Positions 1 through 17,847 of a stretch of DNA of 18,432 nucleotides are shown here, in pieces. Below the pieces are notes generated by a model, which made no database searches, had not been told where the DNA came from, and worked only from the letters and a program-made list of their open reading frames with translations. Made by a program: the position numbers and the translations under genes. The stretch lies in NCBI GenBank assembly GCA_016212295.1, contig JACRGO010000082.1:1-18432 (forward strand). The letters run 5' to 3'. Source of the stretch: Nitrospinota bacterium (GTDB taxonomy: Bacteria; Nitrospinota; Nitrospinia; JACRGO01). The stretch's first letter is position 1. Each line of letters starts with the position of its first letter.

Positions 1-47
1 CGGTAGATGAAATTGCGTTCTTCTTCGGTCACGCGTGTGTAAGCCAT
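1..47 (-). CDS. IS30-family transposase, N-terminal fragment
   Basis: The minus strand from 47 to the window edge encodes MAYTRVTEEERNFIYR, which continues outside. The pattern MxYTxhTxEER..I is the usual beginning of IS30-family transposases (the HTH_38 DNA-binding region). An AAGGAG ribosome binding site lies a few bases upstream of the ATG. Only the first 15-16 residues are visible, so integrity cannot be judged. Its transposase would cut and join the ends of its own element. The neighbouring gene (108-794) ends just upstream of it, which fits insertion of this element into that gene's 3' part. Confidence 0.6.
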   Translation of the reverse strand, partial: MAYTRVTEEERNFIY

Positions 48-125
48 GTCGTTCTCCTTGTGTTGTGGCACACGAAGAACGTAGCTTACCGCGCGTGGCC
101 TTTTCTATCAACAAGTGTTGCAATG
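1..125 (-). mobile_element. One end of an IS30-like insertion sequence (inner part outside the window)
   Basis: The transposase start at 47 is preceded by a short leader. The sequence near 111-125 contains GTGTTGCAA, which resembles the TTGCAACAC-type core seen in several IS30-family terminal repeats. I could not fix the exact outer end: the partner inverted repeat lies outside the window, so the boundary given is an estimate (between about 110 and 150). IS30 elements usually make 2-3 bp target duplications, which also cannot be checked here. Confidence 0.4.
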
Positions 126-794
126 GCCTGTCGCGCGCGGGTACACTACCAATTCTTTAACTATGGATTGGCACCGGCTCCCTTTTAATCCAGATACATC
201 AATTTCCGCGCTTCCGTCATTGCGCACTTTTGTCGCCACTTTTACCCTTCCATCCAACAGAGGGATTTTTTCCTTTCCAATTATTTCAATGTCGGTTTTA
301 TTGACAACTCTGGTCTGGATATTCATTCCAAGCTTTTCATAATGAAGAACAACTTTATTTAAAGTGTGCCTTCGCAAAATGGAATGCCCCAAATCTGCGT
401 TGTTGGTTATAATTTCCAATTTCCCGGCCTTGTCTTTTGACAGCAAAATCGATTCCCCGGATTTATGCCGCAACGCTATAGGAGAATTGTTGGCTGCCAT
501 GTCTCCAACTGGACGGTTCAGGGCAAAACCTTCAATTGCCGCGGCCTTTAGCAAAGGTTCAGGGTCCGTGAGTGTAAGAGGCATCAACATTATTTTTTCC
601 TTGGCGAGAGCTTTTTTGATTTTATTTTTTCCCCATTCCTTCTGAAATTCATCAGCGAGTTTTTTTTGCCGCTCCATCTCTTCCGGACAAACTTCCATGG
701 CCTTGCCGCAAAGATATACGGCGCCCATGACAGCCCCAGCGGCAATTCCCAATGGTATCAAGGCAAGCGGCGCTGCTGATCCGGTGGTGGACAT
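108..794 (-). CDS. Membrane-anchored protein, possibly Ycf35-like (DUF1257) plus DUF2997-like; C-terminus probably replaced by IS sequence
   Basis: 228 aa starting at an ATG with an AAAGGAGG site nearby. Residues about 8-28 form a hydrophobic, Gly/Ala-rich segment (signal anchor or TM helix), followed by a charged stretch around 40-70. The middle (about 70-175; ...PLLKAAAIEGFAL... and ...RRHTLNKVVLHYEKLGMNI) resembles by eye the layout of DUF1257/Ycf35 proteins. Residues about 182-212 (VRNDGSAEIDVSGLKGSRC) resemble DUF2997, whose signature is DGxhxhxhxGhKGxxC. Both families are, from general knowledge, commonly encoded beside Ycf46-type ATPases, and such an ATPase is encoded two genes upstream. 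This is a remote, pattern-based assignment. The last about 13 residues look unlike either family and precede the IS30 end, so the protein is probably truncated. No catalytic function can be assigned. Confidence 0.6.
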   Translation of the reverse strand: MSTTGSAAPLALIPLGIAAGAVMGAVYLCGKAMEVCPEEMERQKKLADEFQKEWGKNKIKKALAKEKIMLMPLTLTDPEPLLKAAAIEGFALNRPVGDMAANNSPIALRHKSGESILLSKDKAGKLEIITNNADLGHSILRRHTLNKVVLHYEKLGMNIQTRVVNKTDIEIIGKEKIPLLDGRVKVATKVRNDGSAEIDVSGLKGSRCQSIVKELVVYPRATGHCNTC

Positions 795-842
795 GGCGAT
801 TCCTCCTTTAAATATTTTGAGTTTTTTAAAAATAGAAGTGAG

Positions 843-1352
843 CTATTTAGGCCAACACTCCTTTATGCTGATCGATAATTTGTTAAACACTGTATCCAGT
901 AAGAAAGCCAGCGAAAAATATATCGCTATGCATGAATGAACAATAAGGCCGGTGTTGTTGAAAAATTTTGTATAAAAATCAATGATCGGGGTCAGTAAAA
1001 GAGCATAAATCCCTAAAAATACGGTTCTGCTTATCAAACAATTCCGGAGTTCCTTTTTCGAATAATCCGTATTGCCGCTGTACATAAAAACTAGTATTCT
1101 GAAAATCTGTTTTATTTCACCTGCACTGACAAATATCATCGCTACCAGCGCGTATATAGACAGTGAGGCGATTATTTTGTGATAACTTATACCGATGACG
1201 AAATGTTCACCATATATCGAGTCTAACCTGGAACGGATAAGCTGATAGTCGGAAAAAATACTATCAGCAAGAAGAAAAAAACTTATACTAAAAATAGCCC
1301 CCCAAATCAGACATATTATTAAGTTATTGGATGCATTTTTCGCGTCATTCAT
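843..1352 (-). CDS. Four-TM membrane protein B (paralogue of the protein at 3879-4862)
   Basis: 169 aa. I start at the ATG at 1352 because a strong AAGGAGGT site lies 7 bases upstream; a longer frame from 1418 has no such site. Four hydrophobic segments are visible (LIICLIWGAIFSISFFLL, IIASLSIYALVAMIFV, TVFLGIYALLLTPII, CIAIYFSLAFLLDTVF). Between TM2 and TM3 lies a conserved cytosolic-looking loop, GEIKQIFRIL...YSKKELRNCLISR. The same loop and helix order occur in the 327-aa protein of this cluster (CEIKQIIGVL...YSSNELKRTLLTR), so the two are paralogues that may form a hetero-oligomer. Protein B lacks the long C-terminal tail. I do not recognise a named family. It sits 93 bp after the AAA+ gene and 48 bp before the 228-aa gene, all in one direction. 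Confidence 0.85.
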   Translation of the reverse strand: MNDAKNASNNLIICLIWGAIFSISFFLLADSIFSDYQLIRSRLDSIYGEHFVIGISYHKIIASLSIYALVAMIFVSAGEIKQIFRILVFMYSGNTDYSKKELRNCLISRTVFLGIYALLLTPIIDFYTKFFNNTGLIVHSCIAIYFSLAFLLDTVFNKLSISIKECWPK

Positions 1353-1445
1353 TTTTTTACCTCCTTCATTAGAAGTTCCTATCGCAAGTTGCTTGTGGAA
1401 ATATATTGTTTTCGTCATGCCGCTTTGTTCCGATCCTCGTCTGCC

Positions 1446-2990
1446 TCATGCTGGTTCGCAATGAAGAACGGCCCAATGCCTCAATTCTTCAAATTGTCCA
1501 TGAATAAGGTTGACTCGTGAGACGTTTTTTCTTATTTCCTGAATTAAATAATTTATTTCTAAATCTTGTTTAACAGCTTGTGAGTAAGCCTTTGCTTCCC
1601 TTATCAATGCCTCAATATCCGCGCCTGTGAATTTCTCCGTCAATTTTGCCAGCTCATTTTTATGTTTTTTTAGACCTTCGGGAAGGAGTTTTTCGAATAT
1701 TTTTTCGCGCGCTTCCAAATCCGGAACATCCACAAAAAATGATTTGTCAAATCTTCCCTTTCTGGTTATTGTGCTTCCTATCTCCCCCATCCTTTCAATG
1801 TTGTTTGCCGTGGCCACGATGAAATTCGGGGAATTGGAATCATTCAACCAAGACAAAAGGCGCCCCATCACCCGCATCATGGTGCCGCCGTCCCTTTCCC
1901 CTCCGGAGGAGTTGGAGGAAAACACCTTTTCAAACTCGTCAATGAAAATAACCACGGGCGCCATGGCCTCGAAGACGGCAAATGCGCTTTCAAAGCGTCT
2001 TTCCGTCTCACCTAAATAGCTGTTCATAAGAGAGGAAATGCGGAATTCTATGACAGGGAAATTCAACCAATTTCCTATAGCCTTAGCCAGCATGGACTTG
2101 CCGGTCCCCGGAGGGCCGATCAACAGAATCCCCTTTGCCCTGTCCTTCCCTGGCACACATATCCGATGCTGGTGAATTTTCAGATAATTGAATAAATTGT
2201 TCAGACCGATGGGAACCTCTTCACGGGCGCTTTCAAGAATGGTCATGGCAAGTTCCCTGGACAGCAAATCTTTTTTTCTTTGGCCCATGAGCTTCAACGC
2301 GGCTTCAAGGTCCACATTATCAATTAAGGCGTCCCTAGCCTCGTTGCGCCCTGCTGTCAACGTAAGTCCGCACAATTCCCTGGCGAATTTTGACGCCCAT
2401 GTTTTAATTTGTTCCGCGTTTATTTTTTTAACATTCTTGTAGGCAATGGCGGCGACTTCGCTTCTCATGCATTCTTCAAGTTCATTATATTTTGGCATGG
2501 GAATCGGAATCCGGATGATCTCTGAAGCAACGGTGCAAGGCAAATGGACCTCGGCCCCTGGCGACTCAACAAGGATCAAGGTAATGCCGGGCGATTTTAC
2601 CGCCATGAGGCGGACCAAAAGATTTCTGGCCACCATTTCTCCTGGATTTGGAGGAGTATTGTTATTTTCACCGGCATTGCGGATAAAATCTTCCACAATG
2701 ACAACCGACTGCTCCTTGAGTTTTTCAATCTGATTTACAATGGAGCCGGGTTCGATAAACCTTGGGCTGCCGGTCATGGCGTTGGGTTTAAAGGCATTCC
2801 TTTCAAAGTCATACTGGCCGGAGTATGTGGGAGAATAATAGTGCAGCGCCTGTTTCATTTCCCCGGCCAACTCGCGGATCAGGTTAATGGAATAGCTCCG
2901 GTCCCTGGTGGTCATCAAGGCTACCCTGATGTTGTTGTATGTCTGGGCCGATTTAACCAGGCGGGCTATTTTATTTTTTATAGTTTCCAT
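1446..2990 (-). CDS. Ycf46-like AAA+ ATPase
   Basis: 514 aa with two halves. Residues about 1-200 are a degenerate NTPase-like region (...QSVVIVEDFIRN..., ...ITLILVESPG...IIRIPIPMP) without a P-loop, as in the Ycf46 family. The second half is an intact AAA+ module: Walker A GPPGTGKS at 292-299, Walker B VVIFIDE at 346-352, sensor 1 in IVATANN, and the second region of homology ending GRFDKSFFVDVPD, very like the GRFDEIFFVDLP of Ycf46 proteins. It probably hexamerises and remodels a partner protein; it is cytosolic, with no TM seen. The ATG at 2990 overlaps the stop of the vWA gene as TAATG, with AGGAGG upstream, so the two are translationally coupled. AAA+/vWA pairs are classic (MoxR-vWA, RavA-ViaA), but this ATPase is of the Cdc48/FtsH-like clade rather than MoxR. 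The Ycf46 assignment is by pattern only. Confidence 0.88.
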   Translation of the reverse strand: METIKNKIARLVKSAQTYNNIRVALMTTRDRSYSINLIRELAGEMKQALHYYSPTYSGQYDFERNAFKPNAMTGSPRFIEPGSIVNQIEKLKEQSVVIVEDFIRNAGENNNTPPNPGEMVARNLLVRLMAVKSPGITLILVESPGAEVHLPCTVASEIIRIPIPMPKYNELEECMRSEVAAIAYKNVKKINAEQIKTWASKFARELCGLTLTAGRNEARDALIDNVDLEAALKLMGQRKKDLLSRELAMTILESAREEVPIGLNNLFNYLKIHQHRICVPGKDRAKGILLIGPPGTGKSMLAKAIGNWLNFPVIEFRISSLMNSYLGETERRFESAFAVFEAMAPVVIFIDEFEKVFSSNSSGGERDGGTMMRVMGRLLSWLNDSNSPNFIVATANNIERMGEIGSTITRKGRFDKSFFVDVPDLEAREKIFEKLLPEGLKKHKNELAKLTEKFTGADIEALIREAKAYSQAVKQDLEINYLIQEIRKNVSRVNLIHGQFEELRHWAVLHCEPA

Positions 2991-3808
2991 TATGCTTTCC
3001 TCCTTTTAAGAAGTGAGATGCAAATGATTAAGACAATAAAGCCAGCAATGAACATTCCCGCTACTTTGAATATAGAGCCAAAGAAGTTCCCTGCCTTTTC
3101 TAAATGTTCCTCTCTCATCTCCTCGGTTATTTTTCTTTTCGCTTTTTTTAGGGCCGGGAGTTCCGCTGTCATTGAATTGGCCTCCCTGTTGAATTGAAAG
3201 GCCAAATCGTATTGGGAAAGTTTTTCCTCCCAAGCCTGGGCCTCCTGAATGTTCACCCAAAAGCCCACCAATGTCGCTTCGGATAATTTCTCCCATTGGA
3301 TACCTTCAGGTGGAGCGGACGGTCGGCGCACGGGACGGCATCCTCCTGTGGGCAAGGGGGGTTCATCCAGCAGGTCCGAGAAGGTCACTATGTATTTGCC
3401 CGCCGGGACGGGATCGTGGTTGAGCAAATAAGCGGCCACGTTAAAGGCCCCTTTGACGTCCGTGCAATTGGCAAAGGCTTTCCTTCCGGCAAACAGCTTC
3501 TTGAGTTCCCCGTTTTTGAGAAGTTCCAACTGCTTTTTTGTCCCAGTCCAAAGCTCCGAGGGTTGGGAGTCCAGGCTCACTATGGAAATTTCATCAGGAC
3601 GGTCCCATCGCTTGTCCCTTCCTGACTCGATCTTTCCCAAAAGCTGAGAGGTTTGTTCCAATGCCGTGGAGATCCGGTCCTGGAACGATCCGGAGGCGTC
3701 CACAATGACCACGATTCTATTGAATGGCTTCTCCACTTTTTCCGCCCAGGCAGCAGTGGCAATGGTAAAACACAAAGCCGTGATAAAATACGCGATTTTC
3801 GTTTTCAT
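2990..3808 (-). CDS. Exported, membrane-anchored vWA-domain protein
   Basis: 272 aa. The ATG at 3808 is chosen because it follows AAGGAG and begins a good signal peptide (residues 1-22, ending ATAAWA). The longer open frame to 4021 overlaps the upstream gene and is not credible. The vWA domain (about 30-205) has a complete-looking MIDAS: DASGS at D37/S39/S41, a Thr at T115 in NCTD, and D145 in TFSD, so metal-dependent ligand binding is likely. A charged, probably coiled-coil stretch (220-240) leads to a TM helix at about 246-266 and a short basic tail LLKRRKA. Expected topology is a periplasmic vWA domain with a tiny cytosolic tail, so it cannot directly meet the cytosolic ATPase except through the tail or the two membrane proteins. 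It is coupled to the AAA+ gene by a 1-nt overlap. Confidence 0.88.
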   Translation of the reverse strand: MKTKIAYFITALCFTIATAAWAEKVEKPFNRIVVIVDASGSFQDRISTALEQTSQLLGKIESGRDKRWDRPDEISIVSLDSQPSELWTGTKKQLELLKNGELKKLFAGRKAFANCTDVKGAFNVAAYLLNHDPVPAGKYIVTFSDLLDEPPLPTGGCRPVRRPSAPPEGIQWEKLSEATLVGFWVNIQEAQAWEEKLSQYDLAFQFNREANSMTAELPALKKAKRKITEEMREEHLEKAGNFFGSIFKVAGMFIAGFIVLIICISLLKRRKA

Positions 3809-3878
3809 TTTTTTCTCCTTTTTATAGTAAATGCAAAAAATAAGTGGACATGAGCCGCTCTCGCATCCGGTTGAAAAT

Positions 3879-4862
3879 CTATTTTCCGTGAATTTCCTGA
3901 TAAAATTGTCTGTCCCACACTCGTCCTTCGTCATCCACATGATATTGAGGGTTGGATCTCGCTTCTTGAAAGGGAACAGTGATAACCGGATTACTTCCGA
4001 TAACCTCGATTTCCTGCGCATCCTCTTCCAAAGTTCCCGTCAGGGTTTCTGGAATATTGCCGCTGCTTTCCGAAATGTCGATGTTTTTGGTTTGTCCTGA
4101 CTCAGTTACGCGAGTTCCCCCGGCCTGGGCAGGAACAATGCTGCTCACAGACGAAACATGTGCTTCGTCGTCGGCCCCCCTGAAGATGGAGTCGTAGAAT
4201 ATGGTCGTGCTGGAATGAAAGTTTTTCACAATAACATCGAAGAGAAAGGCTCCGGCAATGGCAAGGGCCAGATAACAATAGGCAATGGCGTTTCCTGTGT
4301 TGATAATTGCTGAATGTGGATTATTTTTTTCATAGGTCTCCCAGTCCGGCGTATTAATATCGATGGTCACAGCCCCTTGGTTAGCATTTTGCGACAAGAC
4401 GTCTATGAGGGTCTGATAACGGAACATATTCAAATCAAAGGTTACGATCGGCCATAAAAACGACGCGTACAGGGCCAGGTAAAGAGATCTGGTTAAAAGG
4501 GTCCTTTTAAGCTCGTTACTGGAATACTCCCTGTTTTCAGTGTCCACCATATGCTGGAGGACGCCGATAATTTGTTTGATTTCACAAACCGCTGCAAATA
4601 ATAAAGAGGTTAAAAGGACAGCAGTCAGACCGGCCAGCATATAGTTGTAATTGGCGTCCCCAATTCCAAAGGCTGCGATAAAAATCCCCAATAAAGGGTC
4701 TTCGCTTAAGGGAGGTTTTTGGCTTAGGTACTCAAGACCGGTGCGTATGGATGAAAAATTCGCGAAAATATCAACGAACATCAGAACCGCCCATGCAATA
4801 AGGCCCACGGCCCACAAACAGCATCTTACAAAATTTTGAAGAATTGTTTTTAAGTCAGCCAT
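3879..4862 (-). CDS. Four-TM membrane protein A with long soluble C-terminal tail
   Basis: 327 aa, ATG at 4862 with AAAGGAGGTG upstream. TM segments lie near residues 13-33, 70-95, 125-147 and 190-213. The loop CEIKQIIGVLQHM...YSSNELKRTLLTRS between TM2 and TM3 matches that of protein B (843-1352), as do the spacings of the helices. Unlike protein B it has a longer loop between TM3 and TM4 and about 110 extra C-terminal residues, hydrophilic and probably disordered, ending in a small conserved-looking piece (QYHVDDEGRVWDRQFYQEI). The tail could be the docking site for the AAA+ ATPase or the receiver; that is inference. No named family is recognised. It lies 70 bp upstream of the vWA gene and has its own promoter-like element (4926-4947). 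Confidence 0.85.
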   Translation of the reverse strand: MADLKTILQNFVRCCLWAVGLIAWAVLMFVDIFANFSSIRTGLEYLSQKPPLSEDPLLGIFIAAFGIGDANYNYMLAGLTAVLLTSLLFAAVCEIKQIIGVLQHMVDTENREYSSNELKRTLLTRSLYLALYASFLWPIVTFDLNMFRYQTLIDVLSQNANQGAVTIDINTPDWETYEKNNPHSAIINTGNAIAYCYLALAIAGAFLFDVIVKNFHSSTTIFYDSIFRGADDEAHVSSVSSIVPAQAGGTRVTESGQTKNIDISESSGNIPETLTGTLEEDAQEIEVIGSNPVITVPFQEARSNPQYHVDDEGRVWDRQFYQEIHGK

Positions 4863-4925
4863 TTTTCACCTCCTTTGTTTTTTTGCGTTCATAAAAAAAG
4901 TCTGGTGCTTTCCGCTGGTTCTATA

Positions 4926-4956
4926 ATTATATGCAACCCACAAAAAATTAAGTTCA
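4926..4956 (-). promoter_or_regulatory. Promoter-like region with copy 1 of a 20-bp repeat, upstream of membrane protein A
   Basis: On the minus strand the repeat reads TTTTTTGTGGGTTGCATATA (4947-4928). A perfect TATAAT overlaps its end (4931-4926), and TTGAAC lies 20 nt before that hexamer. The spacing is longer than the usual 17, so the shared motif may be an activator or operator site rather than part of the core promoter. The start codon is 64 nt downstream. Confidence 0.5.
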
Positions 4957-5376
4957 ATGTATATCCTCTTTAAATCTTTGTAACGCCTTCGAGACAACAT
5001 GCCTTAATCTGGCCGGTGAAAGAGATGATTTTTGTACATAATAGTAGGTAAATGCGACATCCTTACAGCAGCTTGTGGCTATTTCATGAAAGCTCTTTTC
5101 CGTCCTCACTATGATCTGGATAGATTCCAATTCCTTTTCCTTCCTGATATAGCCAAGCAATTCGAGTCCCGCGTTTTCGCTTTCCATGGCCACATCAATC
5201 AGAGCAACGGCTATATCCGGGTGAACATCCAGCATTTTCATGCCGTCTTTCGCTGAATAAGCATTTATTATCTGAAGGCATCTCCCCTCAAAAACAAAAT
5301 CAGATAGAACAATCCTGGTTACTTCATGAATACCGGTATTGTCATCCACAACCAGTAATTTCCATTTATCATTCAT
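4954..5376 (-). CDS. Stand-alone response-regulator receiver domain (of the DUF3369-regulator type)
   Basis: 140 aa, a single REC domain with no output domain. Acidic pair D11/D12, phospho-acceptor D61 (ALIDVAMES), T92 and K116 (VQKSS) are all in place, so it should be phosphorylatable on aspartate by a histidine kinase not present in the window. The wording DDNTGIHEVTRIVL...FEGR...ALIDVAMES.NAGLEL is the form seen in receivers of regulators that carry a DUF3369 domain, here without it. The start at 5376 follows GAGGTG. It is the first gene of the cluster, so phosphorylation may gate the downstream AAA+/vWA/membrane machinery by protein contact. It could also serve an unrelated two-component pathway. 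Confidence 0.9.
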   Translation of the reverse strand: MNDKWKLLVVDDNTGIHEVTRIVLSDFVFEGRCLQIINAYSAKDGMKMLDVHPDIAVALIDVAMESENAGLELLGYIRKEKELESIQIIVRTEKSFHEIATSCCKDVAFTYYYVQKSSLSPARLRHVVSKALQRFKEDIH

Positions 5377-5753
5377 TCAACACCTCATTTTTATTTTTCT
5401 AATTTGAATAGCGCGTGTGATCCTCTATTTGTATATGCAACCCACAAAAAACATTTTTCAAATAATTGAGCAAGCTCCTTCCTCAAAAGCATGCTTTCCC
5501 CATTTGTTGGTAGTTTTTTTATGTAATCTCTTTAAAATCAAAGCGTTAAAGTACAAGACAAGATCAAGAACCAGAGAATTAATATAAGATTAAGGGCGCA
5601 CTAAAGGTGACTATTTAGAGGAAAAAAACAGGAAGCGAAAGGAAATGCATTATCCGGAAGAGTCATTAATAATAGAAAGATGGAATATTTTGTTGCATGA
5701 AGCTATAATCTTTATGATTTTGCTGTTTATTTTTGAAAAATCGACATTCCACT
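5377..5753 (+). promoter_or_regulatory. Divergent intergenic region; possible promoter of the large HD-NACHT-WD40 gene
   Basis: This 377-bp AT-rich gap separates the minus-strand cluster from the plus-strand giant gene. It holds copy 2 of the 20-bp repeat near its left end. On the plus strand a perfect TATAAT stands at 5704-5709, about 45 bp before the ATG at 5754. The sequence 17 bp upstream of it (TGGAAT) is a poor -35. No convincing Shine-Dalgarno site precedes the ATG. I see no other gene, repeat or RNA in the gap. Confidence 0.35.
5430..5466 (-). promoter_or_regulatory. Promoter-like region with copy 2 of the 20-bp repeat, upstream of the receiver gene
   Basis: The minus strand repeats TTTTTTGTGGGTTGCATATA exactly (5451-5432). 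It is followed by TATACA (5435-5430) and preceded by TTGAAA with the same 20-nt gap as in copy 1. The receiver start is 54 nt further on. An exact 20-bp match at the same place relative to two starts is unlikely by chance and suggests a shared regulator. Confidence 0.5.
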
Positions 5754-8700
5754 ATGAAAATCGAAGAAGCGGATAGCTATTTCAGAAACCAATTTGAGAA
5801 AAGCTGGAAAAATGGGTCCCGCTGGTGGGAGAGATTTGTCTCAAGACGCGCTGAATGGGAAAAACAAAAAAGGAGCTTGTTTGAGTTTTCCGAGACATGG
5901 CAGATGGTGGACCATGGATGGGACCATGCCAATGCCCTGTACGCCTCCCTTCCGCGGTTCCTCTGGGCCATGGAAGCGCATAACGGCAAGAAAATTCTTG
6001 ACAACGGCGCTGAACTTTTTGCCTTTATGGCCGCTGCATATTTGCACGACGTGGGAATGCACTGCCTCTCAACAACCTTGAATGGGGAATTTAAGGAAGC
6101 CGCCCGCAACCCCACTTTTCCCTATTCCTCGGAAGTATTGCTGACGTGGTTGAACCTGGAGCATACGGAGGAAGAGCTGCCTCCCTCCCATGACGCCATT
6201 GTCATAAGGAGGCTTCATCCAGAAATCGGCGCATGGATGTGCGAGTCAGGGGATATATTGATCCAGCCGGACGAAAAGAAAACAATAGGGCAGATTGTTT
6301 TCCGGCACGCCAAAAGAACGTCCAAGAACGGCGGCGCCTGCGGAAGCATGGCACTAGAGGGAGGACCCGTTGAACCGGTCCGGACAGGGTTCATAGCCTC
6401 CCTTATTGCCCTGGCCGATTCCTGCCAGTTGGGCGGCCTCAGAATAACCGGATGGGAAAAACATCTAAAAAAACTGGAAAGCGAAATAAAAATATGGGAA
6501 AAAGTCCAAAATGACATGGATTCAGAAAAGCAGCAACTAAAAGAATGGTGCGGTTCCTACTCCAATCTGCTTCGAGTTCAAATCGAGCACATCTATAAGC
6601 ACCTTGTCGTGGGAGGGGTGTCTCTCGGTCCCGATGGTTTTATCCTGATCCCTGCAGGTACGGATGTGGAGCCATCATGGTTTACGTTAAAGCAGTATAA
6701 GAATTTTACCCGCGAGGCATTGTTAAAACTGGCCCATGAGGATATTAATGGAGAGCTTGGAATTTCTGATAAAGATGGTGGCGTGTCCCAATATTTCTCT
6801 GACTTGGGAATTAAGCTTCCGGAGATTCCGCTTGTGAACACAAGTTCCTGGGAGAATATCAACAAATCATTGAAAGAAAATGACAAGCTGTGGGAAGTGC
6901 ATATAAGGGAGCTTTATGACAAGGAAAAACATAGTAAAGCCATCCTGCCCAAACCCCTCAAAAAGAGAGAGGATTTTGTTCCAGCCCATTTCCGGGAGGA
7001 ACTGGAAAATTATGTGGTCCCGACAATAAAGGGCAAAAATCTTGCCGAGGAAATTGAAAACCTCGTCTCTAAGGGGGAAAACGTCTTTGTCATGGGAGAA
7101 AGCGGCATGGGAAAGAGCCTTCTCCTTGCCTATTCCTTTCTCCAATTTAAGGGACTCTCCAGCTATTACACCATAGACCGGACCCAGGGACTCGATGTCT
7201 ACCGTTCGGAATATGTGCTTTGCGCTCTGCGGGAACGGGCCGTGGAGTTGATGGAGCTGCAAGTATCCCCGCCTGCAAAATCAGAATCCAAAGCCGGGTG
7301 GATATGGGAAAGGGAATACTTGGAAACGGTTTTGCGGGCCTTCTCCCAAGAGAGCCCGGATCAAAATCTCGTTATTTTCCTGGACGGGCTTGATGAGAAT
7401 TACCTGGAAACCCGGGAGAGCGATTTTATCCTGAATATCCTCAAATGTCTCATCCAGGATAAGGAACTGAAAGTTGTTTGGATATTGAGTTCCCAGTCCC
7501 GGCCAGGAGTGGAGTGGACGGAAAATTACTTCACAAGATTTCTCTTTCAGGGACTTGAACGGATGGAGGCGGAGCGGCTTCTTTTAAAACACCTTCCGGA
7601 AGATTTTTATGATAAACATCAGGAATATATTTCCGAGTTTTTGAACAGGGCGGAAATGGGATCAGGATATTACGATCCTGAAATGATCGCCATCACCGGC
7701 CGCGCTTTTCTGGAAAAACATTCTCAAAAGGTAAGCTTTATTTCCAGTGAGTCCTTCAGGAGTTTTATTGATGCCCTTCCCCTGAACTATAGGGAAAAAT
7801 ATGATTGGCTATTTTCCCGGTATACGGAATCCTCTAAATTTAAAGATGTGCCGAGCCTCCAGGAAAACGCCAAAAGATGGTCAGAGCTTGTTCCTGACGT
7901 ACCCTATAACCGTTTTCTTTATGATATTTTTGCCGTCCTTGCCTTGATAAGGGAGCCTATTCCTCTTGCTATCCTTTCATGGGCCTTGGAGAAGGAAGAC
8001 CCCAATCCGAAAAAAGATTTTCGGGGGCGTAAAGTTTGCAATTTCAAGGGCTATCCCATCAGTGTCATGGAGGAAAATAGTTTTCTCTTTACCGCCATAC
8101 GGGACCTCCAGAGGTTTATAAAGATTGTGGATGAAAAGGAGAAACGTTTCTCCTTCTGCAAGGAAGCCGTAAGGGAAAGCTTTATGAAGTTTTCAGAAAA
8201 AGACGGCGAAATCGTGCAATCCGCCAGGGCCAGGCTTACGGCCCTGGCCATGGAAGAGATGGCCTTGGTCCTGGAGGATAATCTGGCCTCGCGCCCTGAT
8301 TATATGATGACGGAGCTTTTATTTCTGGGTTCCCAGGACCGGGAAAGGGCTAAAGTTTTTCTTGATAAGCTGTTAAGACTTCCCTTTTTACCGGAATGGC
8401 TGGAGGCCCATATAAAACAGAGAGACCTCCAAGGCGCTAACCGGGGAAAATCAGCCGGAACTCCGGTTTCATCGTTCGTAGAGGATCTGGGTTTGTTTGA
8501 TGCAATTTTCCTGGATGAGGGGCTGGCGCGTCAAAAAGATTTGATATGCCAGGTTCTTGTCGATTGGCAATATCCATTGAACGCTTATATAGAAATTATT
8601 GCCTCTTTTGTCCGTAATCATAAAGATTTAACCGAATTCTGGCCGCCCAACCCGAAAGATGCCTCAGGACTTTTGAGTCCGCGAGATGGTTATGGACATA

Positions 8701-10742
8701 AAGTAAAAGGCCATACCGGCCCAGTCACCTGCATGGTAGTGCTTCCTGATGGTCGCCTGGCTTCAGGCAGCGAGGATCATACGATCCGCATCTGGGATAT
8801 TAATGCAAAGACATCCATAGTGCTGGAAGGGCATAATAGCAAAGTGATACATCTTGCGGCCTTTCCGGATGGACGGCTGGCATCCGCATCGGAATCAGGT
8901 GAAGTTAGGGTTTGGAATATTGAGAGAAAAACGTCAAAGAAACTGGAAAATAATATTAGATTGATTAAATCTCTTGCAGTTATTTATGATCGGTATTTGG
9001 CATTATTTGGTAACGATAATTCATACTGTTATGATACTTACGCTGATGACATCGAGATTGATAGGGCAGCTTTTTTTATAGGGAATCTTGTGATTTATAG
9101 TTCAAAGGAAGTAGGTCTAATAGATTCTTATGGTCAACTAAATTTTTTGAGTGAAGATGTGGCTAAATGTACAACAGATAAAATTCAAAAATGGTGGGAA
9201 TATGCTGATTATTTGAGATTTGCAATCAACTCAGGAGAGCAATTAATTGCAGCATGTTTAATTGATAAAGAAACGATAACAGATTTAGAAGTGTTAATTG
9301 ATAATCATCTATTTCCCCCAAGAGAGTTCACATTAACGACTGAAGAGGTAGAATATTTGCTGTGTGGTGTTTTGCATGATGTGCCACTCATGACCCATGA
9401 TAGGGGCTTCATTAAAGAAACAAATGGTTTTTTTATACTAGAAAATATGTCCACTGAAGAAAAAAAAGGTGTTCTTGAATTCGCTGGGCGTAGCGGTTTC
9501 AGGGTAGTTAGTTTGGACATGTGTGAAAATAGCGTAATATTTCAATTTAAAGAGGATGCTTATTTATACTGGATATCGTGGAAAGGCACTGGAGATGTAA
9601 AAAAACTACAGTTTAGTGTTAGAGACTTTCAAATAGGTAGCGACCATATTTTAAAATTACTTCCTAATTGTCGCTTGGCAATTACTGATAGTTTTGGGAG
9701 AGTGCAGATTATTAATCTTAACAACCAACATGAGGAGCTATTTTGTGATTCTTGTTTTTCTCCAACTACCGATTTTATAGTTCTTCCGGACGGACGGGTA
9801 GTTTTAAATAATAGAAAAAATAATAATATAAGTGTTTATGATATTTCTAAAAATGAACATACGGTCATCTTACAAACAGGGGATATATCACCAAATTTAT
9901 TTATACTTCGCGAAAATTTAGGGGTTATATATGGAGATAACGACGAAACTGTGGTTGATATATGGGATGTCTTTATGAATAAAAAATGCGCAAGGCATAA
10001 GTTAAAAGGGTTCTGGCAGAATTTAACAAGTGTAATTACTAATCCTTATGATGAGTACATCATGATATTAGATTTGGGAAACATTGTATTCTTAAATTTA
10101 GCATCAGGAGAAATTATTGAGCCTGATTTTAAGGAGATGGAAAAACGCTCGTATTCTTTTGATGCTACCCTCTCTGAGAAAATATTTCTTGTCGATGGAA
10201 ATTGGGCAGGAGTTTTTAAACACTCAGATCACGGACAAGAACAGCTATGGATATTAGATAAAGAAGGAAACATCGTTAATAATGTTAATTATGACGGCAG
10301 ATTCCTATTAGCATTGCCTGATGGACGATTGGCTTATATTTCTTCAAGTAAAAACAGACAAGGAATCGTCATTCGAGATGCAAATTTACGTGAATGTGAT
10401 TTTTATTCGACAGATTCCCTCATTCAGAGCATTTATAACTTCCCCCAAAACCATTTAGCCGCCGCCTGCGTTGATAACTCCATCAGGCTTTGGAATCTTG
10501 AATCAGGTGATTGTAAGGTTTTTCAAGGACATTCCGGAATTGTGCAAGAAGTCATTGCCTTGCCGAACGAACGGTTGGCTTCAGCGGGACAGGACAAAAC
10601 CATTCGTGTTTGGGACATGGCTACCAGGGAACAAACAGCCATAGGTTTTTTTGATGGTTTACCGTCAAAGATGGACCACATTCCTGTTCACCAAACTCTT
10701 CTGCTTTTGACTTCCACCGGATTAAAAGCCTTCAAATTGTGA
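5754..10742 (+). CDS. HD domain - NACHT/STAND NTPase - WD40 repeat protein (bacterial NLR-like)
   Basis: About 1662 aa. I prefer the ATG at 5754; a TTG at 5733 would add seven residues, and neither has a clear ribosome binding site. Domain order: (1) HD phosphohydrolase-like domain, residues about 50-225, with H54/H57 (DHGWDHA), H98-D99 (LHDVGMH), H185 and D222 as likely metal ligands; (2) NACHT-type NTPase, about 420-700, with Walker A GESGMGKS (448-455) and Walker B LVIFLDGLDE (539-548), the D-x-x-D-E form of NACHT; (3) a helical region; (4) WD40 repeats from about 983 to the end, with motifs such as PDGRLASGSEDHTIRIWD, long enough for about two propellers. In STAND proteins the repeats sense a ligand and the NTPase oligomerises to switch on an N-terminal effector; here the HD domain would be the effector, perhaps acting on nucleotides. 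A role in phage defence is inferred from architecture. Residues about 1063-1563 are encoded by strikingly AT-rich DNA. Confidence 0.9.
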   Translation: MKIEEADSYFRNQFEKSWKNGSRWWERFVSRRAEWEKQKRSLFEFSETWQMVDHGWDHANALYASLPRFLWAMEAHNGKKILDNGAELFAFMAAAYLHDVGMHCLSTTLNGEFKEAARNPTFPYSSEVLLTWLNLEHTEEELPPSHDAIVIRRLHPEIGAWMCESGDILIQPDEKKTIGQIVFRHAKRTSKNGGACGSMALEGGPVEPVRTGFIASLIALADSCQLGGLRITGWEKHLKKLESEIKIWEKVQNDMDSEKQQLKEWCGSYSNLLRVQIEHIYKHLVVGGVSLGPDGFILIPAGTDVEPSWFTLKQYKNFTREALLKLAHEDINGELGISDKDGGVSQYFSDLGIKLPEIPLVNTSSWENINKSLKENDKLWEVHIRELYDKEKHSKAILPKPLKKREDFVPAHFREELENYVVPTIKGKNLAEEIENLVSKGENVFVMGESGMGKSLLLAYSFLQFKGLSSYYTIDRTQGLDVYRSEYVLCALRERAVELMELQVSPPAKSESKAGWIWEREYLETVLRAFSQESPDQNLVIFLDGLDENYLETRESDFILNILKCLIQDKELKVVWILSSQSRPGVEWTENYFTRFLFQGLERMEAERLLLKHLPEDFYDKHQEYISEFLNRAEMGSGYYDPEMIAITGRAFLEKHSQKVSFISSESFRSFIDALPLNYREKYDWLFSRYTESSKFKDVPSLQENAKRWSELVPDVPYNRFLYDIFAVLALIREPIPLAILSWALEKEDPNPKKDFRGRKVCNFKGYPISVMEENSFLFTAIRDLQRFIKIVDEKEKRFSFCKEAVRESFMKFSEKDGEIVQSARARLTALAMEEMALVLEDNLASRPDYMMTELLFLGSQDRERAKVFLDKLLRLPFLPEWLEAHIKQRDLQGANRGKSAGTPVSSFVEDLGLFDAIFLDEGLARQKDLICQVLVDWQYPLNAYIEIIASFVRNHKDLTEFWPPNPKDASGLLSPRDGYGHKVKGHTGPVTCMVVLPDGRLASGSEDHTIRIWDINAKTSIVLEGHNSKVIHLAAFPDGRLASASESGEVRVWNIERKTSKKLENNIRLIKSLAVIYDRYLALFGNDNSYCYDTYADDIEIDRAAFFIGNLVIYSSKEVGLIDSYGQLNFLSEDVAKCTTDKIQKWWEYADYLRFAINSGEQLIAACLIDKETITDLEVLIDNHLFPPREFTLTTEEVEYLLCGVLHDVPLMTHDRGFIKETNGFFILENMSTEEKKGVLEFAGRSGFRVVSLDMCENSVIFQFKEDAYLYWISWKGTGDVKKLQFSVRDFQIGSDHILKLLPNCRLAITDSFGRVQIINLNNQHEELFCDSCFSPTTDFIVLPDGRVVLNNRKNNNISVYDISKNEHTVILQTGDISPNLFILRENLGVIYGDNDETVVDIWDVFMNKKCARHKLKGFWQNLTSVITNPYDEYIMILDLGNIVFLNLASGEIIEPDFKEMEKRSYSFDATLSEKIFLVDGNWAGVFKHSDHGQEQLWILDKEGNIVNNVNYDGRFLLALPDGRLAYISSSKNRQGIVIRDANLRECDFYSTDSLIQSIYNFPQNHLAAACVDNSIRLWNLESGDCKVFQGHSGIVQEVIALPNERLASAGQDKTIRVWDMATREQTAIGFFDGLPSKMDHIPVHQTLLLLTSTGLKAFKL
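8940..10440 (+). other. AT-rich, diverged segment inside the WD40 region
   Basis: Within the giant gene, DNA from about 8940 to 10440 has many AT-rich codons (for example 18 of 60 bases are G/C at 9121-9180), while sampled flanks have more (26 of 60 at 7561-7620; 31 of 60 at 8281-8340). Over the same span the WD40 repeats become hard to see, with only scattered LPDGR-like turns. They return to near-canonical form after 10440 (SIRLWNLESGDC, KTIRVWDM). The frame stays open throughout. This suggests exchange or fast evolution of the recognition surface. The edges are estimates. Confidence 0.6.
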
Positions 10743-10855
10743 CGACACTTTCTTTCTTCGTAATCTCAGCGCCTCGGCTCCTTTGAAAAGAAGGACTCCC
10801 TCTCTCTTTGTCACATTCCTATCCAAGTTCTATAAACTGGATAAGCTTATTGCAG
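10743..10855. other. Short convergent intergenic spacer
   Basis: This spacer lies between the end of the plus-strand giant gene and the end of the minus-strand ATPase/DUF234 relic. It contains a weak imperfect hairpin around 10779-10797 (TCCTT...AAGGA) without a T-tract, so I do not call a terminator. Its right end carries a short copy of nucleoside-hydrolase coding sequence (see 10831-10859). Confidence 0.4.
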
Positions 10856-10859
10856 CTAT
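10831..10859. repeat. Short duplicate of a stretch of the CYTH-nucleoside hydrolase gene
   Basis: 27 of 29 bases match 12542-12570 in the same orientation, with a 19-bp exact core AACTGGATAAGCTTATTGC (10835-10853 and 12546-12564). In the second copy these bases encode part of the nucleoside hydrolase (SGNKLIQF on the minus strand). Here they overlap the stop of the DUF234 relic. The two copies bracket the ATPase/DUF234 relic, 1.7 kb apart. Confidence 0.6.
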
Positions 10860-12244: not shown

Positions 12245-14632
12245 TCAGGAAACCAGCCGGGAAAAGAAGAACTCCTCGAACGCCTCTCTCTCCACGTCTC
12301 GCGCCACGCCGATAACCGCCTCTTTCGGGTCGCGCCACTCTGGATTGCGCGTGGGACGGTCGTCCGGAAAGATCATGCCGTTGGTGAACTGTCCCCTAGT
12401 TTCCACATTGATGATATGTTTTTCCACATTCAAGAATGCAGGGTTAATCACATAGGCCACGGCCAGAGGGTCATGCAGGTAACAACCGGGCAGCCCCTCG
12501 TTCCCCTTATAAAAATCCATGTACTTTCTTGAGATATCCCTTATGAACTGGATAAGCTTATTGCCGCTATTGGCTGAAGCGGCCCGCTCCAGAGCGCCGC
12601 GGCGAAGCAAGACTTTATGGGTCACGTCCAGGCCCACAAAGGTCAAGGGGACGTGTTTATTCTTATCATCATTAAGGAGAAGTGAGTCCTTGCAAAATTT
12701 GACTACTTGTTCGGCGGCGCCAGGATCGGAATAGACGTTGAACTCCGCGTCCGCCCGGATGTTGCCTGCATCGAAAAAGACGCCTCCCATGGCCACGACT
12801 TCTTTCAAATTTTTCACTCCCTCCGGATCATTTTGAATGGCAAGGGCCAGATTCGTCATCGGTCCGACGGTGATCAATGTAATCTGCTTGGGATGCTCCC
12901 TGGCCATATCCACGATGACCTTCCATGCCGGGCGTTCATCCAGTTTTATATTTTCCGGCATTGGCGTGGAATCCGCGTCTCCCAGGCCGTCCTCCCCGTG
13001 CACCGAGGGGACAGGTTCAAACTCCTTTCCAAGAGGTTTTTCCGCCCCTTTCGCCACCACATGCATCTTCTCTAAGCCAAGGGCGTTAAACACCTTGAAG
13101 ACATTGGGCACAACCTTGTCCACGTGAACGTTCCCGGAAACGGCTGTGACCGCCATTACCTCCAATTCAGGCGACCTCAGGGCCAGAACGAGTGCCAGGG
13201 CATCGTCCACGCCGCAGTCGGTGTCGATGATAACCGGCTTGATCACTGCGGGGGCCATTGCCGTTCTTATAAGGGAGACTCCGCGCTCGTATTTCGACTG
13301 CCGGGAAGGGATCATCCCCAGGTTTTCCTCTAAATAGCAGGCGATTTTTTCAAGTTCCTCCCTGGGGATTCCCTTGCTTTCAATCTCCACTTCATTAAAC
13401 GACCCCAGTTCCTTATTATTCACCAGGTAGGTTACCCGATCGAAAAAGACCTCCGCCTTTTGCCCGGAACTATTTCGTACTATCCATCGCTCCCTGTTGT
13501 TTTGGACCTGTAGCTTTTCCATTATCGATCCATGCGCCGGAGCGACATACTCCAGCAACCGGTAGGGGAGAGCCTTTATCCTTTCTCCCTTGAGCAGGGA
13601 TTCCTTTTGTAAGGCCGTGATCACCGCCTCCTCCTCAATCCTCTCATAAAGACCGGTTGCGGAATATTTTTCCTGGACGGGAAGACGCTTTTTCATGGTT
13701 GCCTTCAGATTCCCCTTGGATTCCCTGATCCTGAAGGAGACGCCATTCGCGAGAAGCGTGAAACGCCCATCATCAAAATAAATGTCGGTCTGCGTGTTTG
13801 CCCTCTTGGGACGATGCTCAACTTCAAGCAAATGTTGCTTCAGGACCTCTGGAAATAAGCTCTTGATTGAATTCATCTCGTTTATGTCGTGCGCGAGGAA
13901 CTTGTACTCGATTTCATAGTGGGAGGGCCGGGATTCCAGAGGTTGTCTCGGCGAAAGCTGGTTTTCCTTTAAAACTCTTTCATAACGGCGAAGGGCGCGC
14001 TCCAATTCCCTTGGATGCATGGGGTCCACTAACCAATAATCCTCGCCGTGGTAGTCTTCCGGTACGGTCTGCACAAAACCCATGTCCCCGTTGACAAACC
14101 AACGGACCCAAAGAAAATGTTCCAAATCCAGGCCGTCCTTGGTAAGGGGGTGAATGCGATGATATTGATCCCCTGCGTATTCGCCTTTTTTCCCTTTAAG
14201 TAATTTAACTTTTTTATATTGCCTGGCAAAGAGGGGGCTGGAGGCGTTGTCCGGCCGGGGATGGAAAAAATAAAGATTCGGGATGTTAATTTCCGGCTTC
14301 TCTCTTGCGATATCCTTTAGTTCTCTATCCTTTTGGTTTGGAGCCAAATTTTTAACGTCAATTGTATCGGAATAGTGCGGGTGGAAGACAGAATTAATCC
14401 TCTGAAAGATGCGTCCATCCTCAGCACGGCAACTATTCCCTACTATCTTAAAAAAATTAGTGCCGTACTTAACCAAGATGACGAAGTTGTTTTCGGTCCT
14501 GGTCAGCCTCCAGTCATCCGGCAGGTGGGCGTTGATTTCCTCCACTATTTCCATGAATTCTTTCTCCGAAATCCTCACTCTCTCATCGAGTCTCTCCAGA
14601 ATGTGTTCAAGTTTCCTTTGAAAGACAAGCAT
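12245..14632 (-). CDS. CYTH domain - nucleoside hydrolase fusion with unknown N-terminal domain
   Basis: 795 aa, ATG at 14632 with AAAGGA 11-12 bases upstream. Residues 1 to about 230 are an unrecognised domain, apparently soluble, with many aromatic and charged residues. Residues about 236-455 are a CYTH (triphosphate tunnel) domain with the ExExK signature E240-x-E242-x-K244 and later basic/acidic strands (ATMKKRLP, YERIEEEAV). Such domains bind inorganic or nucleoside triphosphate with divalent metal. Residues about 466-795 are an inosine-uridine-type nucleoside hydrolase: DTDCGVDDA (470-477, calcium site), VHGEDGLGD, TVGPMTNLA, AEFNVYSDPGAA and the HDP motif (LHDPLAVA), so the catalytic set looks complete and the length is normal. 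The domain combination is unusual; it suggests hydrolysis of a nucleotide-derived substrate, possibly in two steps. It lies 50 bp after vapC in the same direction. Confidence 0.88.
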   Translation of the reverse strand: MLVFQRKLEHILERLDERVRISEKEFMEIVEEINAHLPDDWRLTRTENNFVILVKYGTNFFKIVGNSCRAEDGRIFQRINSVFHPHYSDTIDVKNLAPNQKDRELKDIAREKPEINIPNLYFFHPRPDNASSPLFARQYKKVKLLKGKKGEYAGDQYHRIHPLTKDGLDLEHFLWVRWFVNGDMGFVQTVPEDYHGEDYWLVDPMHPRELERALRRYERVLKENQLSPRQPLESRPSHYEIEYKFLAHDINEMNSIKSLFPEVLKQHLLEVEHRPKRANTQTDIYFDDGRFTLLANGVSFRIRESKGNLKATMKKRLPVQEKYSATGLYERIEEEAVITALQKESLLKGERIKALPYRLLEYVAPAHGSIMEKLQVQNNRERWIVRNSSGQKAEVFFDRVTYLVNNKELGSFNEVEIESKGIPREELEKIACYLEENLGMIPSRQSKYERGVSLIRTAMAPAVIKPVIIDTDCGVDDALALVLALRSPELEVMAVTAVSGNVHVDKVVPNVFKVFNALGLEKMHVVAKGAEKPLGKEFEPVPSVHGEDGLGDADSTPMPENIKLDERPAWKVIVDMAREHPKQITLITVGPMTNLALAIQNDPEGVKNLKEVVAMGGVFFDAGNIRADAEFNVYSDPGAAEQVVKFCKDSLLLNDDKNKHVPLTFVGLDVTHKVLLRRGALERAASANSGNKLIQFIRDISRKYMDFYKGNEGLPGCYLHDPLAVAYVINPAFLNVEKHIINVETRGQFTNGMIFPDDRPTRNPEWRDPKEAVIGVARDVEREAFEEFFFSRLVS

Positions 14633-14682: not shown

Positions 14683-15081
14683 TTATAGATTAATCAAATG
14701 GACGTCACAATATTTTGCGATATCCTTGAAATGGCTGTCCAATGAAAATAGAGACAGGCCCTCCTTCTGGGCAACCGTTGCCAGGACTACATCCACGGTG
14801 CTGAATGTCTTTCCTTTCCTGGCGGCTCTTTGGCTGATGAGCCCGGCGTGATGGTAATGTTCGCGGGTAATTTCCACATACGAAATGGTTTGGAAAAGTT
14901 GTTCCAAAACCAGGATTTCCTGCTGTGTTTTAGCTCCTTGGTAAAGCTCGACTGCAATAGGACCCGCATAGCATGCCTGGTCCATTTTAAGAAACTCCCG
15001 CAGCATTCGGGAAACAGGAGAATCTTTCTTCCGGAAAAATTCTATCCACACGGAGGTATCGATGAGGACTTTACCGTTCAT
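14683..15081 (-). CDS. vapC: VapC-type PIN-domain toxin (ribonuclease)
   Basis: 132 aa from the ATG at 15081, which lies inside the last codons of the antitoxin gene (11-nt overlap), so the pair is translationally coupled. A start nine codons upstream is possible but adds only antitoxin-overlapping residues. The PIN acidic residues are present: D8 (LIDTSVWIEFF), E45 (AVELYQGAK), D97 (STVDVVLA) and D115 (FSLDSHF), so the nuclease should be active on RNA. Length is typical of VapC. It is held inactive by the partner encoded immediately upstream. Confidence 0.93.
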   Translation of the reverse strand: MNGKVLIDTSVWIEFFRKKDSPVSRMLREFLKMDQACYAGPIAVELYQGAKTQQEILVLEQLFQTISYVEITREHYHHAGLISQRAARKGKTFSTVDVVLATVAQKEGLSLFSLDSHFKDIAKYCDVHLINL

Positions 15082-15265
15082 GGCGAGCCGTCTCCCAAAG
15101 GCCGTCAAATCGAAGCTTTCCTTCTTGCTCCAAAAGTTTTTCTATTTTTTTGACGCGAATGTATTCTTGAAGGGCCTCGGCCACGGTTTCCGTTTTTGTC
15201 TTGCGGCCGGAGAGAATCATGGCCGTACTGATAAGATCTTCTGATATGTTCAATGTTGTTTTCAT
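15071..15265 (-). CDS. vapB: VapB-type antitoxin
   Basis: 64 aa. The ATG at 15265 follows a strong GGAGGT site. The N-terminal part MKTTLNISEDLISTAMIL is a ribbon-helix-helix DNA-binding domain of the VapB antitoxin kind (MKTTLNIDdeLl...), followed by a helix EALQEYIRVKKIEKLLEQ and a C-terminal tail with FDGLWE that would block the PIN active site. The gene ends within the start of vapC. It probably represses its own promoter together with VapC. Confidence 0.92.
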   Translation of the reverse strand: MKTTLNISEDLISTAMILSGRKTKTETVAEALQEYIRVKKIEKLLEQEGKLRFDGLWETARHER

Positions 15266-15277
15266 AATACCTCCATA

Positions 15278-15326
15278 ACAATCATTATTGTACATCCACA
15301 TTAAGACAAATAAGATGTATTGTCAA
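15278..15326 (-). promoter_or_regulatory. vapBC promoter/operator candidate
   Basis: The minus strand has a perfect TTGACA (15326-15321), with TAATGT 17 nt later as a weak -10. Just before the vapB ribosome binding site is a palindrome ACAAT-AATG-ATTGT (15291-15278), a plausible RHH-type operator for VapB autorepression. Confidence 0.45.
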
Positions 15327-15427
15327 TGGCAATTTCCCCTGCGGTTTCCCGTGTTGGCATAACCCAATATCTCATGGTTAGATACTTACCTATCGATTCT
15401 GAGAGTTTGTCTCTCACATTTCAGGAT

Positions 15428-15506
15428 ATTTCAGATTTGTGATTTCAGATTTTAGATTGGTGGCAGGTTTTTTTATTCCTTCAATCTGAAATCAGCAATC
15501 TGAAAT
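15428..15506. repeat. Long imperfect inverted repeat
   Basis: The arms are 15428-15451 and 15483-15506, each of the form ATTTCAGATT-NN-TGATTTCAGATT, matching at 22 of 24 positions when one is inverted, with 31 bp between them. Each arm itself contains a tandem-like TTTCAGATT twice. It lies between vapB and the cas6 relic, so it could be a transcription stop for cas6 or a small MITE-like repeat. There is no strong T-tract next to the stem. The rest of the 15327-15527 gap shows nothing coding. Confidence 0.6.
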
Positions 15507-15527
15507 TTAAAATATCTTTTGTTAGGT

Positions 15528-16508
15528 TTAGGCATGCTCTCCTGATATTTCATACTTCCCCATCCCGAAGGTGGCGTATTTCCCGGCATGCACCGCCTCC
15601 CCCAGGATCAGGAAGGGAATAAATTCCTCAAGGTCGCCGGTAAAAGCCACATCCCCAACGAGCCCGCCCATTTTAATTTTTTGCCCTTGGCGATTGGAGT
15701 ATCTTTCCCAATCCTTGAATACCGTCGCATCCTCGATGGTTTTTACTTGTTCCGACTTGGCCGCCAGGCCCTTGAAGTCCAGTTCCAGCTCCACGCCATG
15801 ATGAAAAATCAGCAGGTTGGATATTCGCCTCAAGAGATTTTTAAAAAAGAGATGGAATTCAAAACGACGGCATACCTTCTTGTCGGCCTCAATCCTGAGA
15901 GGCGTAAGAAGGCGCATAGAAAGCTGGTTCATGGAATAATAATCCTCTCTTCCCATGGCCAAATCCCGGAAGGCGGCCACGGATGGCGGCGCGAAAAAAC
16001 TTCAAGATTTAAAAACAGTTTTTGTTATTCCATCTTTATCTGTCCGGCTGACCGATTTTAATAAAAACCTCCCTCCGCCCTTTCCCAGGCCGGCCCGGCC
16101 AAATTCCTCAAAGGCAAAAATGAAGTGGGGCAGATAGTTCCTGGCCTTCCCAATAAGGACCAGGTTGAATATTATTTCCTCTCCTTCCGCGAAAATCCGT
16201 TTATTTTCCAGGGGAGGTTCTATGACAAAGGGGGCGGGAATATTTTTAGTGTTTTTCAGGACCTCGCTGCCTTCTGGAAGTCTGGTATTAAAAAGGTAGA
16301 GAAAGAGGCAATCTTTTTTCCTGGAACAGTCGTCGCAATTATTCTTTTTTTCATCGCATAAAACCTTCCGCAATGCCGTTCCGAAGCCGCCCCTCAAGGC
16401 GGAGCCTTTATACTCAGGAAGCTCAATATGCTCTTCTGAAGCCAGAATAAACTCGAACCTGGCGATGCGAAATTCCTCCAGCTTTCTTAGGATATTTTCA
16501 GCAAGCAT
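15528..16508 (-). pseudogene. cas6: CRISPR repeat RNA endonuclease Cas6 (RAMP), split by an in-frame TGA
   Basis: One frame of 327 codons from the ATG at 16508 is interrupted by TGA at 16002-16004. The N-terminal part has the Cas6 pattern YKGSALRGGFGTALRKVLC followed by a Cys cluster (CDDCSRKKDC) and FGRAGLGKGGGRF. The C-terminal part, after the stop, has QLSMRLLTPLRI, ...GDVAFTGDLEEFIPFLILGEAVHAGKYATFGMGKYEI, the glycine-rich end of this Cas6 family. Joined, the length is normal. Cas6 cuts CRISPR precursor RNA in the repeats. No other cas gene and no repeat array is visible in the window, so this looks like an orphan relic. No good ribosome binding site precedes 16508, and the gene begins 12 bp after the DUF4143 ATPase ends. 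Confidence 0.8.
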
Positions 16509-16520
16509 GATGTTATCAGT

Positions 16521-17666: not shown

Positions 17667-17667
17667 G

Positions 17668-17694
17668 TGGTTATTTTACACGGTTAAATAACCA
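17668..17694. promoter_or_regulatory. Perfect inverted repeat touching the start codon of the DUF4143 ATPase
   Basis: TGGTTATTT (17668-17676) and AAATAACCA (17686-17694) form 9-bp arms around a 9-bp centre, one base upstream of the ATG at 17666. It may be an operator, or an RNA hairpin that limits translation; the site where a ribosome binding site should be is inside it. Confidence 0.5.
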
Positions 17695-17847
17695 TATGTC
17701 AATCTCATGATTCAGCAGGCTGATAATTTTCACCTGAAAATCCTTTTCTCGCGCAAGGGCGCAAAGAACCCTTCGGCAAGCTCAGCAGCGCCGCGTTTTA
17801 TTTTTTTGCCATTATTGCTTCCAAAGTTGTCTCTAATGCCTCTACTA
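17695..17847. other. Non-coding spacer between the DUF4143 ATPase and the MITE-like element
   Basis: Nothing convincing is encoded here. It contains a copy of the sort of low-information sequence CTTCGGCAAGCTCAG common in intergenic DNA. A tiny minus-strand frame, 17798-17860 (MRLLIVEALETTLEAIMAKK), begins in the element's terminal repeat; it may be the tail of a lost gene or chance. Confidence 0.4.

Follow-up and report, generated by a model that had tools for sequence, protein, structure and literature searches.

A six-gene cluster around a Ycf46-type AAA+ ATPase in a Nitrospinota bacterium, possibly a membrane-tethered variant of a recurring module

Introduction

In the MoxR AAA+/vWA systems, including RavA-ViaA, NorQ-NorD, VMAP and other ternary conflict systems, a AAA+ ATPase lies next to a vWA protein with an intact MIDAS and is accompanied by accessory proteins, and the MoxR-vWA ternary conflict systems are the nearest published design to the locus described here (PMC7159879). 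The Ycf46/DUF1257/DUF2997 module of cyanobacteria, plasmids and phages offers a second comparison; some of its members also have a TM-bearing DUF1257-like partner, and in cyanobacteria ycf35/DUF2997 adjoins the ferredoxin gene fed7 (PMC4284462). ATPases of the Ycf46 family occur widely among bacteria, phages and algal plastids, and our literature search returned almost nothing on their usual partners. Here we compare these systems with six genes encoded on an 18.4-kb contig; the window is the whole stretch of 18,432 nucleotides that was analysed.

Results

Six genes packed on one strand

All six genes are encoded on the minus strand and are read in the order rec, tmB, vWA, ATPase, tmA and g1 (Table 1), with successive gaps of 91 bp and 70 bp, an overlap between vWA and ATPase, and gaps of 93 bp (with the tmA start taken at 1352) and 48 bp. 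The vWA stop codon overlaps the ATPase ATG, most starts are preceded by a GGAG-type ribosome site, and GC content ranges from 0.35 (tmA) to 0.50 (vWA). An earlier sequence-only reading had described six same-strand genes with short gaps and one overlap, and had treated them as one unit; both points stand, the second through the spacing, the translational overlap of vWA and ATPase, and a 20-bp element limited to the locus, and the packing of the six genes as one operon is supported. The span of 108-5376 given there does hold all six genes, but its true lower end is at about 143, since positions 1-142 are an IS30-like end. No Rfam family matches within the window.

Table 1. Features of the cluster (window coordinates) and loci of the related module elsewhere
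Feature	Position	Strand	Description	Evidence
IS30-like end	1..142	-	insertion sequence end, transposase start MAYTRVTEEERNFIY	identical sequence at many contig ends; HTH_38 in a longer copy
g1	143..794	-	N-terminal TM helix, alpha/beta region, cut DUF2997-like domain	weak DUF2997 match, local profile, IS boundary
tmA	843..1352	-	169-aa 4-TM protein	hydropathy, alignment to tmB
ATPase	1446..2990	-	514-aa Ycf46-type AAA+ protein	AAA 1.3e-28, full-length alignment with homologues, phrog_8638
vWA	2990..3808	-	272 aa; signal peptide, MIDAS DxSxS...T...D, C-terminal TM helix then KRRKA	VWA_2, motif positions, hydropathy
MITE-like end	3819..3874	.	element end with inverted termini (CATGTMTACTTATTTTTTGCGTTTACTAT) in the tmB-vWA gap	dispersed, many copies and part copies in the genome
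tmB	3879..4862	-	327-aa membrane protein with ~110-aa C-terminal tail, tmA paralogue	hydropathy, BLASTP, alignment
28-nt element, copy 1	4920..4947	-	20 nt exact; 57 bp before the tmB start	repeat search
rec	4954..5376	-	stand-alone response-regulator receiver, 140 aa	Pfam Response_reg 1.3e-7; residues located; CheY matches in PDB
28-nt element, copy 2	5424..5451	-	20 nt exact; 47 bp before the receiver start	repeat search
Related module	L182, L202, L230, L089 (around ATPase match), L075:4564-8257		TM-HhH, radical-SAM, ATPase, DUF1257-like, DUF2997	

The exact 20-nt core of the repeated element occurs only twice in the 3.74 Mb genome, even with up to 3 mismatches allowed. In 100 Markov-simulated sequences of the region no exact repeat was longer than 15 nt, against the 20 nt observed; as exact repeats of similar size occur elsewhere in the window (10835/12546), the weight of the 28-nt element lies in its position before two cluster genes, and it may be either a shared operator or what is left of a duplication. 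Farther along the window is a 29-nt direct repeat with 93% identical copies (10831-10859 and 12542-12570), one of them within a nucleoside-hydrolase gene.

A full-length Ycf46-type ATPase outside the MoxR clade

The ATPase has an intact Walker A (GPPGTGKS, 292), Walker B (IFIDE, 348-352) and SRH arginine (in RKGRFD, 410; GRFD at 412-415). It aligns along its length with 11 homologues, the Ycf46-type N-domain included, and with the phage family phrog_8638 across residues 25-513 (2.4e-55); the Ycf46-type relatives that align in this way come from plasmids, phages and genomes. The Ycf46-like character first read from the letters thus extends from end to end of the protein. Its best-matching families are the Cdc48, PAN and FtsH-like classical AAA ATPases and not those of the MoxR clade. 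A tree of 149 sequences puts the protein by itself on a very long branch of 2.4 substitutions per site, which leaves it unassigned to any one group of orthologues. The ATPase is a complete Ycf46-family protein, though on a very long branch, and not a MoxR ATPase, which sets the locus apart from the MoxR AAA+/vWA systems.

A truncated, probably DUF2997-like partner

The last gene, g1, gives a below-threshold match to Pfam DUF2997 (18.6 bits, E 0.0017; cut-off 24.1), and a locally built DUF2997 profile matches its residues 185-215, the domain being cut by the IS. There is no Pfam match to DUF1257/Ycf35, and our own profiles gave E values of 0.9-44 at Z=20000. Of the earlier description of g1 as Ycf35/DUF2997-like, the DUF2997 part has some statistical support and the Ycf35/DUF1257 part has none, although the layout of g1 resembles a fusion of a TM-bearing DUF1257-like protein with DUF2997. 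Fold searches with the predicted model of g1, which like that of tmB is of poor quality, returned low TM-scores or common arrangements only.

The sequence at positions 1-142 of the window also ends many other contigs of the genome, and a longer copy of the element elsewhere carries HTH_38 (4.3e-10). This contig-end comparison rules out positions 101-142 as part of g1: its ORF was called at 108-794, and the last 10-11 codons (108-142) are IS sequence. As the frame enters the IS at about 142, the DUF2997 domain is lost after about half and the C-terminus is not g1's own; and as the IS30-like end opens the contig, the operon is cut short, with whatever lay beyond g1 absent from the contig. Either the insertion has broken g1, or only some of the sampled cells carry it and the assembly ended on reaching the repeat. 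This copy of the cluster may be decaying, since the IS end disrupts its last gene.

Paired membrane proteins, an exported vWA protein and a lone receiver

The two membrane proteins were proposed as paralogues from the outset, as BLASTP of tmA against tmB confirms (9e-16). Only three segments of tmB exceed the hydropathy threshold, the fourth TM being placed through alignment with tmA, and tmA itself probably starts at 1352, downstream of GGAGG, although its ORF opens at 1418. A stretch EIKQI...YSxxEL is conserved between them in the TM2-TM3 loop, where positive charge is densest. Pfam, NCBIfam and PHROG scans assigned no family to tmB.

The vWA protein matches VWA_2 short of the Pfam cut-off (E 8e-5), and its MIDAS positions are filled: DASGS at 37, Thr in CTD at 115 and Asp in FSD at 143. 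Its start was moved from the ORF opening at 4021, as first read, to an internal Met at 3808. Export and membrane anchoring, also proposed at first, are predicted: the protein has an N-terminal signal peptide and, at its C-terminus, a TM helix with the basic residues KRRKA after it, and these features place the vWA domain in the periplasm by prediction. Together with the classical Cdc48/FtsH-like AAA domain of the ATPase, this predicted periplasmic, anchored vWA domain distinguishes the locus from the MoxR AAA+/vWA systems.

The receiver keeps the acidic pocket (D11/D12), the phospho-acceptor (D61) and the switch residues (T92 and K116), and its initial description as a lone receiver is borne out by its Response_reg match. 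It may resemble the receiver that heads HD-GYP response regulators with DUF3369.

The combination of genes was found nowhere else

The combination of rec, tmA/tmB, vWA, ATPase and g1 was found in no other sequence set searched. No relative of tmA/tmB or vWA was found in the set for the bacterium's own phylum (77 genomes), and tmA/tmB were likewise missing from 50 genomes that carry related ATPases as well as from a sample of about 1,170 genomes of three other phyla. There was no match to tmB, vWA, tmA or g1 among plasmids, nor to tmB or vWA among phages, and viral contigs and 84,980 genomes, searched through short exact peptide patterns for tmB, for vWA or for the profile of the membrane pair, gave nothing; the tmA/tmB profile search is of limited sensitivity because the profile was built on two sequences. 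The genome scan for the ATPase returned at least 80 loci, and among the matches listed the nearest ATPase loci all lack the vWA and membrane genes. Weak matches to the tmB tail in the own phylum, inside presumably protoporphyrinogen-oxidase-like proteins, were dismissed as chance, as was one 41-aa match in another phylum.

The lack of recurrence in the sets searched favours the possibility of chance neighbours, in which a Ycf46-DUF2997 pair merely adjoins a membrane/vWA/receiver set unrelated to it, within an island that is decaying and rich in mobile elements; this account is also favoured by the IS30-like end in g1, the MITE end between tmB and vWA and the spread of GC content between tmA and vWA. 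Two unrelated sets side by side are nevertheless disfavoured by their interleaving, with tmA between ATPase and g1 and its paralogue tmB before vWA, and the translational overlap and the shared element unique to the locus also speak against chance neighbours, which we consider rather unlikely.

A recurring Ycf46-type module

A DUF2997-like gene lies within 5 kb of the Ycf46-type ATPase in 29 of the 136 loci examined, and DUF1257, DUF2997 and 4Fe-4S genes adjoin such ATPases on annotated plasmids. Neighbours of the nearest Ycf46-type ATPases among the matches listed include DUF1257, DUF2997, a radical-SAM 4Fe-4S protein and a TM-HhH protein. The cluster shares with the Ycf46/DUF1257/DUF2997 module the full-length ATPase homology and probably a DUF2997-like operon partner. 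It differs in adding tmA/tmB, the exported vWA protein and the receiver and in its very long-branched ATPase; no HhH partner was recognised on its contig, and no DUF1257 half could be demonstrated. Nor was a radical-SAM 4Fe-4S (Fer4_12) partner recognised on the contig, which has lost the end of the operon to the IS, and the search of the genome elsewhere gave E 0.0097 at best. The composition had been put forward as new. Its vWA and tmA/tmB proteins have no detected relatives in any set searched, but the ATPase is of the Ycf46 type, and the probable presence of the usual partner DUF2997 would make the cluster an elaboration of that known, uncharacterised module and not a wholly unrelated system.

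A set comprising TM-HhH, radical-SAM/Fer4_12, a Ycf46-type ATPase, a DUF1257-like protein with an N-terminal TM, and DUF2997 recurs in genomes of Gastranaerophilales and others, on a viral contig and on an actinobacterial plasmid. A literature search under its family names found no paper, and this module may be more worth study than the six-gene cluster.

Discussion

We tentatively favour, as possible though doubtful, the reading of the cluster as a Ycf46-type AAA+ module in a variant form tethered to the membrane. Favouring it are the gene packing, the vWA/ATPase overlap, the ribosome sites and the 20-nt element; the Ycf46 homology, the DUF2997 genes near Ycf46-type ATPases, the plasmid loci with DUF1257 and 4Fe-4S genes, and the TM-bearing DUF1257-like partners elsewhere; and the intact MIDAS and receiver residues together with EIKQI/YSxxEL in a positive loop. 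It is weakened by the lack of a second example, by the IS end that disrupts g1, and by the nearest ATPase loci being without vWA or membrane genes. In such a variant the ATPase ring would dock at the inner membrane via the DUF2997-like adaptor g1 and the cytosolic TM2-TM3 loop of tmA/tmB (EIKQI...YSxxEL), with tmA/tmB forming a membrane platform whose N and C termini lie inside. The periplasmic vWA domain might bind a metal-dependent ligand, as sensor or clamp, ATP hydrolysis would remodel or free a membrane or envelope client across the platform, and the receiver may switch assembly or activity once a kinase from another locus phosphorylates it. Both the membrane coupling and the phosphorylation control suggested by the earlier reading are inference. 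A more specific and unlikely version is a AAA+ machine that spans the envelope: a cytosolic Ycf46 ring would act through the two 4-TM proteins as platform, and through the adaptor with its TM anchor, to work the periplasmic vWA under receiver control; if true, it would be a AAA+ motor/vWA pairing outside the MoxR clade.

The readings of chance neighbours and of a conflict system rank close behind that of the membrane-tethered variant. As a conflict or anti-phage system, which we regard as unlikely, the ATPase and adaptor would sense or unfold an invader-related client, tmA/tmB would damage the membrane and vWA would serve as scaffold. In its favour, the gene next to the cluster and divergent from it (5733-10742) encodes a STAND-like protein with HD-CE, NTPase and WD40 regions, genes for PIN, Cas6, RAMP-like, HEPN and DUF4143 proteins are found within 13 kb, and the rarity of the cluster and the density of mobile elements fit a defence island; the MoxR-vWA ternary conflict systems illustrate the general design (PMC7159879). 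The ATPase is nevertheless not a MoxR protein, an exported vWA would be unusual and no effector domain was recognised. Although the AAA+ domain resembles IetA models, PADLOC matches are limited to this shared domain, which is also the only likeness to IetA/IetS defence (AAA+ and a subtilisin-like protease); the N-terminal domain and partners differ, and no protease family, and so no IetS-type partner, was found among the window proteins scanned.

A maturation chaperone akin to NorQ-NorD or CoxD-CoxE, with the ATPase and vWA assembling a metal cofactor or membrane enzyme complex, would account for a AAA+/vWA pair with intact MIDAS, and related Ycf46 modules do contain 4Fe-4S radical-SAM proteins, and cyanobacterial ycf35/DUF2997 sits with fed7 (PMC4284462). 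Such a role is improbable: the contig has no recognised gene for a metalloenzyme or a radical-SAM protein, the ATPase falls outside the MoxR clade, and vWA and ATPase are predicted on opposite sides of the membrane.

The cluster is a real yet isolated, partly broken curiosity. A Ycf46-type variant joined to membrane and periplasmic parts, as in the membrane-tethered reading, hints that this family can act at membranes and suggests partners to test. Should such a variant be real and exist intact elsewhere, AAA+/vWA pairing would no longer be confined to MoxR ATPases and would reach across the inner membrane.

Three other features of the window were observed. The 1669-aa protein at 5733-10742, divergent from the cluster, combines HD-CE, P-loop NTPase and WD40 regions and is likely a STAND-type conflict protein. 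At 14683-18355, genes for PIN, Cas6, RAMP-like, DUF4143 ATPase and HEPN proteins lie close together without a full CRISPR-Cas locus, and between them and the STAND-like gene, at 12245-14632, a single 795-aa protein fuses a CYTH domain to a nucleoside hydrolase domain.
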